Shown: one piece after another, positions 8,525 through 26,654 of the stretch
Layout: each line of letters starts with the position of its first letter
Position numbering within the stretch: position 1 is the stretch's first letter
Assembly (NCBI GenBank): GCA_002793035.1
Contig: PFPL01000030.1
Coordinates: 1-46,517 of the forward strand
Reading direction: 5' to 3'
Source: Candidatus Magasanikbacteria bacterium CG_4_10_14_0_2_um_filter_33_14
GTDB lineage: Bacteria > Patescibacteriota > Patescibacteriia > Magasanikbacterales > UBA922
Length of the DNA stretch: 46,517 nt
The notes under the pieces: generated by a model
Seen by the model: the letters and a program-made list of their open reading frames with translations, nothing else
What the model was told of the DNA's origin: nothing
Database searches by the model: none
Translations under genes and position numbers: made by a program

Positions 8525-8682
8525 TAAAAAACTACCAATATGGTAGTTTCAAAAGATTTGAGCTACGGTGGACGGACAAGCTCAATTTATATCAGGGAGA
8601 GCTCATACTTCCTTGTTAGGTTTCCCCGCCTCCCAGGAAGGAGACACCTACCCTAATTCATTGGCCTGTCCGTCCACCGGAC
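8525..8682 (-). ncRNA. Candidate structured ncRNA A with own promoter and terminator
   Basis: No ORF; 13-bp perfect closing stem 8566-8578/8667-8679; minus promoter TTGACT(8710-8715)-N17-TATATT(8687-8692); minus terminator AAACTACC-ATATT-GGTAGTTTTTTACTTTTT. Confidence 0.65.
8529..8551 (-). terminator. Intrinsic terminator of ncRNA A
   Basis: AAACTACC/GGTAGTTT stem followed by T-rich tract on minus. Confidence 0.7.
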
Positions 8683-20847: not shown

Positions 20848-22173
20848 TTACTTTTTTTTCTCAATAAATTCTCTAGCGAATTCTCTATCATCCCAAGGGA
20901 TCATCTTACCACCAGCAATACACATACCCTGTTCACTTCCTTTGCCAGTTATTAAAATCAAATCCCCTTCTCTTGCCATTTCAATGGCTCTACCAATAGC
21001 TTCTTTTCTATCCAAAATTTTGAAAACAGTTTTATCAATTTCTTTACCTTGTTTGACAACTGATTCTGAGACATCATCGATAATTTCTTGAGGGTCATCT
21101 TCATAAGGGTCTTCATCTGTAATAATACAAATATCAGCTCTCTTACCAATCATTTCGCCAAGTTTGAAACGTCTATCTCTATCACGTCCCCCACCAGTAG
21201 AACCAAAAACATGAATTATTCTACCAATAGGTTTTATTAAATCAACCACTTCATAAAGTGATGACATAGCTTTTGGTTCAAAAGCATAGTCAACAATTAC
21301 TTGAAAACCTTTTTCCTTAGCTTCTGGAATAAACTCCACTCTACCTGGAATTGGTTCCAAGTTGGAAACAGCTTTTTGTAATACGTCCCAAGCGATATCA
21401 AATTCTCTAGCAATAGTCAAAGCAGCTGCGATATTACTAATATTATGTTCACCATACAAAGGCGCGTGAAATTCTTTATCATCTATATCAAAATGTAAAC
21501 CATCGTTTTTTACCTCTTGCTTTGAGATATTAGTTCCAAAGCTAATTTTTTTGTCAAAATCAAATTGTAAAAATTCATCTTTATACTCAGAATTTCCATT
21601 TACTATTGCTGTTTTTGAGATAATTTTTTTCGTTCCCCGTTCCCCGTTCCCCGTTCCTTTTTTCCTAGGCAGTTTACTAACATAATTAAATAAGTCCAAC
21701 TTAGCTTGTTTATACGCCTCAAAAGAACCATGCGAATCAATATGTTCTGGATAAAGATTAGTCAAAGCCATCATGTCATAATTGATAAAACTATGACGAT
21801 ATTGAACACGTCCTTCAGAAGTTGTCTCAACAATAGCGACATCACATTTCTTATCTACCATTTCACGTAAATATTTTTGAATTTGCATACGACCTAGCAT
21901 AGTCATCTTTTGATCATTTAGCTTATCAACTCCCGCAATATAAAAATCAATAGTAGAAAGTGAACCAACTTTCAATCCAGCATCTTCCAAAATCTGACGC
22001 AAAATATAGACTGTACTAGATTTACCACTTGTTCCTGTAATTCCAATAACCATCAATTCTTCACTTGGATGTTTATATTTAACAGATCCGTACCAAGCAA
22101 AAAATAGATGACGTAGGTTTAGTAATTTTTTTGGTATTAGTTTTTTAAGTATTTTTTTCATAGTTATCAACAC
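20848..22173 (-). CDS. murE: MurE-like Mur ligase
   Basis: VIGITGTSGKSSTVYIL, ETTSEG, NLYPEHIDSHGSFEAYKQAKLDLF, VDYAFEPKAM, GSTGGGRDRDRRFKLGEMIG, ITDEDPYEDDPQ. Confidence 0.88.
   Translation of the reverse strand: MLITMKKILKKLIPKKLLNLRHLFFAWYGSVKYKHPSEELMVIGITGTSGKSSTVYILRQILEDAGLKVGSLSTIDFYIAGVDKLNDQKMTMLGRMQIQKYLREMVDKKCDVAIVETTSEGRVQYRHSFINYDMMALTNLYPEHIDSHGSFEAYKQAKLDLFNYVSKLPRKKGTGNGERGTKKIISKTAIVNGNSEYKDEFLQFDFDKKISFGTNISKQEVKNDGLHFDIDDKEFHAPLYGEHNISNIAAALTIAREFDIAWDVLQKAVSNLEPIPGRVEFIPEAKEKGFQVIVDYAFEPKAMSSLYEVVDLIKPIGRIIHVFGSTGGGRDRDRRFKLGEMIGKRADICIITDEDPYEDDPQEIIDDVSESVVKQGKEIDKTVFKILDRKEAIGRAIEMAREGDLILITGKGSEQGMCIAGGKMIPWDDREFAREFIEKKK
21631..21657. repeat. Tandem CGTTCCC(C) repeat inside murE
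   Basis: CGTTCCCCGTTCCCCGTTCCCCGTTCC. Confidence 0.9.
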
Positions 22174-22214
22174 TATTATTTTACAGAATATTTTATTGAT
22201 GTTATTGTTTTTAC

Positions 22215-22432
22215 ATACCGTGTGTGTAGAAAGAGAGAGAGACAGTCGCTCACCGGGCCCCGTTTTGGCACCATTTTCTCGCCAAACCGGCGCCTGAAAG
22301 GAGGTGATCTTTCAAGCGACAACGTCTCTGTTAATTCTCAAACTCACCAAAGCCCAAGACACAGAGAGAACTGACACTCCTTCTACACACGCGGTTCTCT
22401 CATCAACACCTAAAAACGGTGTTTTTTTATTC
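22215..22432 (+). ncRNA. Candidate structured ncRNA B containing an extended Shine-Dalgarno sequence
   Basis: Outer stem CGTGTGTAGAA/TTCTACACACG; second stem AGAGAC-a-GTCGCT/AGCGAC-aac-GTCTCT; hairpin around GTTTTGGC/GCCAAAC; AAAGGAGGTGATCT at 22297-22310; plus terminator ACACC-TAAAAAC-GGTGT-T7. Confidence 0.6.
22404..22432 (+). terminator. Intrinsic terminator of ncRNA B
   Basis: AACACC-TAAAAAC-GGTGTT followed by T tract on plus only. Confidence 0.7.
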
Positions 22433-22999
22433 ATTCAAACTAAGCTCATAAACCACTTTTTCAATCTTCTGAGCTGCCATCTTGGCTTGGTCAAACTTAT
22501 TACGCAAATAACTAGTTAAGTTAAACTCAATAAGTTCGCCAGTGATTTCTTGCGCCATATTAGCACATTTCTTGACTTTGTCCATATCTTTCTCAGTAGC
22601 AAACTTGATAGCATAGCGATAGAGCTCGCCTGGTACATCACAAAGACCTCCAACATAGCTTTTGAAAGGAACATCCATATCTGTGATTTTGGTCAATTTT
22701 CCAGTAGTCAAAAATTGATAAAAGAGACTAGCTTCAACATATTCTTCAAGGCCAGCTTTGAAAGCGCCTTCTTCTTGAATTTCTCCATATTTGGAATATT
22801 TCTTTAGTACAGAGGTAAGTAAATTTTTACTATTAGCCAATTTCTCTTCTGCTTCATTCATATTGTCCCTGTGCATGGCAAAAATGGCTCTCTTAGCGTT
22901 GTGTAGTGCATCATCTGACATCTTTATCACTTCTCGTCTTACCTCGGCATACTGAAGCAAATTTTTCTTGATTAAAGTTAAATATTTTTTGTCCAACAT
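22427..22999 (-). CDS. Translin-family RNA/ssDNA-binding protein
   Basis: All-helical 190 aa; EEGAFKAGLEEYVEASLFYQFLTTGKL and GGLCDVPGELYRYAIKFATE pattern of translin homologues. Confidence 0.75.
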   Translation of the reverse strand: MLDKKYLTLIKKNLLQYAEVRREVIKMSDDALHNAKRAIFAMHRDNMNEAEEKLANSKNLLTSVLKKYSKYGEIQEEGAFKAGLEEYVEASLFYQFLTTGKLTKITDMDVPFKSYVGGLCDVPGELYRYAIKFATEKDMDKVKKCANMAQEITGELIEFNLTSYLRNKFDQAKMAAQKIEKVVYELSLNE

Positions 23000-26132: not shown

Positions 26133-26579
26133 ATGTCCAAAGACAACCAGGACGATGGTGCCTCCTACACCATCGACTTCGAAACAGAGGGTGATGAAGG
26201 TAGAGTAGTCGCCTTTGTGAAGTCGCCCAAGTGCCGAAACAAAGCAGAGGTACTTCGAGAGTTCTATCCTCTGATAGAACAATCGGTCATCACGCTGGAA
26301 GACTTTGTGTCGTTCGCAAGCAAGGTTCGTGCATCGTCTCTGAGCGATGAAGGACTAGCCCCAAAGCTCGACATCTACCATTCCAAGAGTGAAGGTGGGA
26401 TTTCGACCTGGGCAGGCGCGGAGTTCTTCAATTCGTTCGAGATGCTCAAGGCGACACTCCACCGGATGGTGGAGCACTCCATCATAACATCAGAAGAGTC
26501 TTCCGATGCTGAGAAGCAAGCTCGCATCGAGGCTACCCAGATGTACGAGCAGCAGACCTCCGAGGACGACGAGGACTGA
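26133..26579 (+). CDS. Acidic orphan hypothetical protein in GC-rich island
   Basis: 148 aa; GAGAGGA upstream of ATG; GC-rich codon choice unlike the rest of the window. Confidence 0.65.
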   Translation: MSKDNQDDGASYTIDFETEGDEGRVVAFVKSPKCRNKAEVLREFYPLIEQSVITLEDFVSFASKVRASSLSDEGLAPKLDIYHSKSEGGISTWAGAEFFNSFEMLKATLHRMVEHSIITSEESSDAEKQARIEATQMYEQQTSEDDED

Positions 26580-26626
26580 GAGATCCAACAACAAGAACCA
26601 CCATTGTATGGCGGAAAGGAGGTGCA

Positions 26627-26654
26627 GGACGAATGTTTTCAACAACATTCGTCC
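26627..26654. repeat. Perfect 11-bp hairpin GGACGAATGTT/AACATTCGTCC preceded by AAAGGAGGTG
   Basis: Exact inverted repeat read directly. Confidence 0.8.

Follow-up and report, generated by a model that had tools for sequence, protein, structure and literature searches.

Why would a bacterium that makes so little use of Shine-Dalgarno (SD) sequences carry a structured intergenic RNA that displays a nearly maximal one? The question is raised by one locus in a window of 46,517 nt (the whole stretch of DNA analysed), which is contig C19 of a 1.1-Mb Candidatus Magasanikbacteria assembly (G000). A first-pass annotation, made from the letters alone, had described there a folded RNA, termed B, and proposed that it could bind 30S subunits. 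The locus is arranged as follows:

20848-22173, minus strand: Mur-ligase-domain gene, on one side of B
22180-22208, plus strand: promoter-like site TTTACA-17 nt-TATTGT, with TG before the -10 element; start predicted at about 22214-22216
22214-22425, plus strand: structured non-coding RNA B, about 210 nt (fold z -7.4; 74% identical homologue at the same site; eight double-sided changes that stay paired)
22405-22423, plus strand: intrinsic terminator AACACCTAAAAACGGTGTT with a T run after it; the homologue has one compensatory pair
22427-22999, minus strand: Translin-family gene, on the other side of B

At the level of consensus signals, B has the layout of a stand-alone small RNA gene, with a promoter of its own, an intrinsic terminator and no ORF. 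The plus-strand terminator that the first-pass annotation reported is present in both known homologues, and the convincing promoter that it did not find has a candidate in the site listed above, with a similar TG-preceded counterpart (TTGTTA-16-TATATT) at the equivalent place in the homologue; the promoter scan around B returned two sites against 0.8 expected in shuffles, which is weak evidence alone. As had been claimed, no ATG, GTG or TTG stands at SD spacing behind the 16S-complementary motif, and this is true of the homologue as well. No ORF follows the motif in B, no gene lies downstream on the plus strand, and the sole plus-strand ORF of at least 60 aa that overlaps the motif begins within it and reads through the terminator.

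The first-pass annotation had allowed for B being a known RNA, but Rfam 15 returned no family for it at the gathering threshold or at E ≤ 10, the sole match being a chance miRNA (E 2.5). Two specific candidates were set aside: RNase P RNA (RF00010), which this genome encodes elsewhere (154.9 bits), and tmRNA (RF00023, with its tRNA-like domain and tag ORF), which neither ARAGORN nor Rfam reported for B. In the assembly as a whole, neither ARAGORN nor Rfam at its cut-off detected a tmRNA, possibly owing to a missing assembly piece or a divergent tmRNA. Searches with DNA and with covariance models, covering relatives, the family and the class (up to 384 genomes), recovered a single homologue, 74% identical and at the same site, in the nearest B-carrying relative, Candidatus Magasanikbacteria CG10_big_fil_rev_8_21_14_0_10_36_16 (G002), and a contig pattern search matched only that genome. 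B is single-copy in each genome and absent, by DNA search and model, from three of five genus members and from every other genome searched; plasmids and phages gave no match, nor did viral contigs for one conserved 19-mer, and the literature searched on this phylum held no non-coding RNA work matching B. Overall, B is very probably an independently transcribed, structured non-coding RNA of about 210 nt that is new, and on these searches it is restricted to the Ca. Magasanikbacteria lineage, where it is seen in two species.

The predicted fold of B has a minimum free energy (MFE) of -79.1 kcal/mol (z -7.4), equalled in none of 200 shuffles. Its elements, together with the 16S-complementary motif, are:

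22217-22231, plus strand: outer stem P1, 5' arm ACCGTGTGTGTAGAA, partner 22381-22395; one compensatory pair
22245-22249, plus strand: inner stem P3, 5' arm GTCGC, partner GCGAC 22316-22320; invariant in both sequences
22255-22295, plus strand: inner arm helix GGGC 22255-22258 / GCCT 22292-22295; two compensatory pairs
22255-22295, plus strand: inner arm helix TTGGC 22265-22269 / GCCAA 22281-22285; two compensatory pairs
22296-22309, plus strand: GAAAGGAGGTGATC, perfectly complementary over 14 nt to the 3' tail of 16S rRNA; duplex energy -23.5 kcal/mol, with about 7.5 needed for opening
22303-22307, plus strand: GGTGA inside the motif; proposed pseudoknot partner TCACC 22344-22348
22329-22376, plus strand: hairpin P4, base TGTTA 22329-22333 / TGACA 22372-22376; one compensatory and one single-sided change
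22364-22401, plus strand: possible tail pseudoknot GAGAGAAC 22364-22371 / GTTCTCTC 22394-22401; eight perfect pairs
22381-22395, plus strand: outer stem P1, 3' arm TTCTACACACGCGGT, partner 22217-22231

A 54-pair structure that includes the two proposed pseudoknots is fully formed by both B and its homologue. Because the helices were selected for pairing in both sequences, and there are only two, this complete pairing is partly built in, and the real structural evidence is that 8 of the 54 pairs are altered on both sides yet still paired, against 0 when partners were slid. Secondary structure with compensatory changes is thus conserved between the two sequences, whose comparison shows the predicted closed fold (outer stem, inner arm, P4 hairpin and terminator) to be maintained by such changes. 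Much of the architecture drawn in the first-pass annotation holds, including a folded RNA of about 200 nt, the outer stem, with its double-sided change, and the invariant inner stem, while its local TGAAAG/CTTTCA hairpin does not, being unconserved and absent from the MFE form. The TCACC/GGTGA sequestration that it had considered possible gains from a compensatory change, since GGUGA/UCACC in B becomes GGUGG/CCACC in the homologue (an A-U pair turned into G-C); a second possible internal partner for GGTGA, TCGCC, shows the same covariation, so that the TCACC partner is not unique. The pairs of the tail pseudoknot are invariant in both sequences, hence without covariation, and reach p ~0.001 in flank shuffles.

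The motif had been presented as a 14-nt perfect anti-16S sequence. The sequence is there and its complementarity to the organism's own 16S tail is perfect across 14 nt, but the perfect 14-mer is 22296-22309, and T22310 only wobbles with G. That tail was located on contig C64 (locus L033), near the contig end, as ...GTGGATGGATCACCTCCTTTC; a full-length 16S model run over the whole genome reported no 16S, missing this 3' end. GAAAGGAGGTGATC complements GATCACCTCCTTTC, the 3' end of the genome's own 16S gene, in 14 Watson-Crick pairs, which is the complementarity looked for in a 30S or anti-SD decoy. On both strands of the 1.07 Mb, GAAAGGAGGTGATC occurs twice, in B and antisense to 16S, where base composition predicts 0.0035 occurrences, a post hoc figure given that anything striking had been sought. 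In 46 genomes of the family, matches to the 13-mer AAAGGAGGTGATC almost always fall in the 16S gene, with two others: B, and what is apparently a genuine ribosome-binding site upstream of an ATG in G030. Most of the motif is base-paired in the predicted fold, and opening it for 16S binding would cost 5-7.5 kcal/mol; the net energy would still be favourable (-16 and -12).

In the homologue, whose 16S tail is identical, the motif reads GAAGGAAGGTGGTC, and exact GAAAGGAGGTGATC is not conserved: the longest exact run common to homologue and motif is 5. Even so, 13 of 14 positions of GAAGGAAGGTGGTC can pair with the 16S tail, including two wobbles and with one A·C mismatch, for a duplex of -16.7 kcal/mol, an energy not attained by any of 717 regions upstream of genes in this genome. 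The best duplex over the whole homologous RNA is -19.4 kcal/mol (p 0.0005, about 1 in 2000 shuffles). It had been asked whether AAAGGAGGTGATC is the most conserved segment of B. It is not: identity between B and the homologue is 79% in the motif (11/14) and 88% in the outer stem and tail, although the motif exceeds its immediate flanks (52%, 25/48, and 17%, 1/6); the P4 loop is 70% conserved. Random motif variants with three substitutions keep an equally strong duplex in 10-26% of cases, depending on transition weighting.

SD use in this genome is near background, an SD-like word preceding 3.3% of 705 ORFs against 3.1% in a control stretch, a census that is approximate, being based on ORFs of at least 150 aa with the first ATG taken as the start. 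The anti-SD tail of 16S is intact despite this. With so little SD use, a translation-wide decoy would have few competitors and few clients. Near-maximal SDs (e.g. GAAAGGAGGTGATACACATG) do occur across the family before pilin-like membrane proteins of ~150 aa (L156 at about 17285 on contig C52 of G000; L200, L182, L207, L214, L223 and L234), an exception in an SD-poor lineage. At L233 and L235, on the minus strand, AAAGGAGGTGA is followed by an ATG and, within one to a few codons, a stop (ATG TGA; ATG AAG TAT AGT AGC TAA); these are possible minimal ORFs or ribosome-capturing leaders. Within the window, GAAAGGAGGTGCAG (26614-26627, plus strand) carries 11 consecutive nucleotides complementary to 16S; it lies shortly after the ORF at 26133-26579 and ahead of two hairpins.

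The gap between the translin and Mur-ligase genes varies in content across the family: it is occupied by B in two species, by an ORF in G001 and G003, by other structured elements in G004, G029 and G062 and by small ORFs elsewhere, and in many genomes the two genes are directly adjacent. The element of G004, a third species of the same genus, has a promoter-like site and strong folding, without a recognisable terminator, and carries AAAGGAGGTGG, the sole AAAGGAGGTGR of that assembly; its pairing with the 16S tail stands out by duplex energy (p 0.011) and by run length (p 0.0025). It was rejected as a B homologue by alignment, the score not exceeding shuffles. In G029 (L049, from 1159) and G062 (L051, minus strand), two species of another genus, the site is occupied by a distinct, GC-rich structured element of ~240 nt with a TTGACA promoter, a long outer stem and a terminator, and in two other genera by DUF3800-II RNAs (RF02961; L050 2642-2718 and L068 2638-2711). 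The window itself contains two further structured stretches. One, at 8529-8681 on the minus strand, is probably the ncRNA A of the first-pass annotation; it has a 16-bp outer stem (CCGGTGGACGGACAGGC/GCTTGTCCGTCCACCG), TTGACT...TATATT upstream and a terminator downstream, and its body has no homologue in 59 relatives. The other, at 41905-42398, is a GC-rich folded intergenic stretch of 494 bases in AT-rich surroundings with no Rfam match. Used as controls, ncRNA A and the G062 element showed no excess 16S pairing, and the G029 element was marginal. A single class uniting A, B and the elements of G004, G029 and G062 through a tail helix around the 3' arm of the outer stem was rejected: the helix is significant only for B and G002, more weakly for G004, and is not significant in A or, by exact runs, in G029 or G062. 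Nor was a general class of SD-presenting RNAs upheld, as the non-16S AAAGGAGGTGR matches examined across the family were mostly real ribosome-binding sites or lay within coding sequence.

Among known systems, B resembles stand-alone bacterial small RNAs in being an independent, structured and terminated intergenic unit (~210 nt), and differs from them in having no Rfam family, a stretch directed at 16S rRNA and not at mRNA, and a range of two species only. FourU- and ROSE-type RNA thermometers are masked SD elements. In B, likewise, the GGAGG core would be masked by YCACC and by a weak local hairpin in which it pairs with CUUUC, but there is no downstream gene, the local hairpin is unconserved and no Rfam thermometer matches. 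Extended SDs of mRNAs, such as those of S. aureus (PMC13009471), are likewise complementary to the 3' tail of 16S to a near-maximal extent, whereas B has no start codon or ORF and is a closed, terminated, structured RNA in an almost SD-free genome. The hibernation factors HPF and RMF (e.g. PMC8406268) are proteins, unlike B, which would likewise act on idle 30S or 70S particles if our best explanation holds. At the level of titles and abstracts, the literature searched described no RNA decoy of the anti-SD.

The explanation that we weakly favour, while placing it a little below an even chance, is that B is a 16S-tail-binding RNA whose SD-like strand would be gated by an internal pseudoknot. 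This strand would be held by the P4 loop (GGUGA/UCACC) and, once released, would pair with the unoccupied 3' tail of 16S. On this view B would be a 30S- or pre-16S-binding RNA, competing for the anti-SD or touching 16S 3'-end maturation, and would not serve translation start. Since most genes lack an SD, 16S tails would be largely free, leaving only a few strong-SD mRNAs, e.g. that of the pilin-like gene, for B to compete with. The decoy or 30S-binding proposal of the first-pass annotation is therefore retained in part: it has a real non-coding RNA, complementarity to the genome's own 16S and a homologous motif with 13 of 14 pairable positions on its side, and against it a motif partly engaged in covarying internal pairing and a genome that hardly uses SDs. 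These same two points feed an alternative that we rate just short of evenly probable, in which B is a real RNA but its 16S complementarity is incidental, GAAAGGAGGUGAUC simply forming one side of helices within the RNA (GGUGA/UCACC and GGAGG/CUUUC), and its action in trans would depend on a different region, e.g. the conserved P4 loop (AAACYCACC...AAGCCCAA), or on a bound protein. The covariation to GGUGG/CCACC gives an internal structural reason for conserving motif bases, and the mostly paired state of the motif, the loss of its exact form in the homologue and the conservation of the P4 loop point the same way; the rarity of a perfect 14-nt match and the strong 16S duplexes of both the homologue and the unalignable G004 element argue for binding instead. 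On the sequences of two homologues, a functional motif and an incidentally complementary one are about equally probable.

Three other explanations appear less probable. The varied contents of the gap at one site would suit an insertion hotspot, with B as one exchangeable, possibly selfish cassette among structured RNAs with their own promoters, small ORFs and GxxExxY-like genes, and with a motif that has no host role; we consider this improbable, as neither terminal repeats nor mobile genes nor additional copies were seen, phages and plasmids gave no match, nor did viral contigs for one conserved 19-mer, and the fold is under pairing constraint. That the motif serves a short or non-canonical ORF, such as a leader peptide or attenuator, recalls the very short ORFs behind AAAGGAGGTGA at L233 and L235, but is very unlikely in view of the lack of a start codon at SD spacing in both homologues, the course of the one overlapping ORF and the lack of a plus-strand gene after B. 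The minus strand also folds well and reads AAGATCACCTCCTTTCA, so it could in principle be a 16S-tail mimic that binds SD-containing mRNAs; this we regard as the least credible of all, because T-run terminator and TG-preceded promoter lie on the plus strand in both homologues, the minus strand has no T run and few SD mRNAs would be available as targets.

Even without anti-SD binding, B would be an undescribed non-coding RNA with a conserved fold and no Rfam family. The wider possibility, doubtful at present, is that it represents a dedicated bacterial RNA that binds the 16S anti-SD tail, whether as decoy, as reservoir or as maturation guide, within a lineage whose anti-SD is intact but which has almost abandoned SD-led initiation. 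If B does bind the anti-SD, it would provide an RNA-based means of occupying 30S subunits, and would bear on why this lineage retains a perfect anti-SD tail though most of its genes lack an SD.
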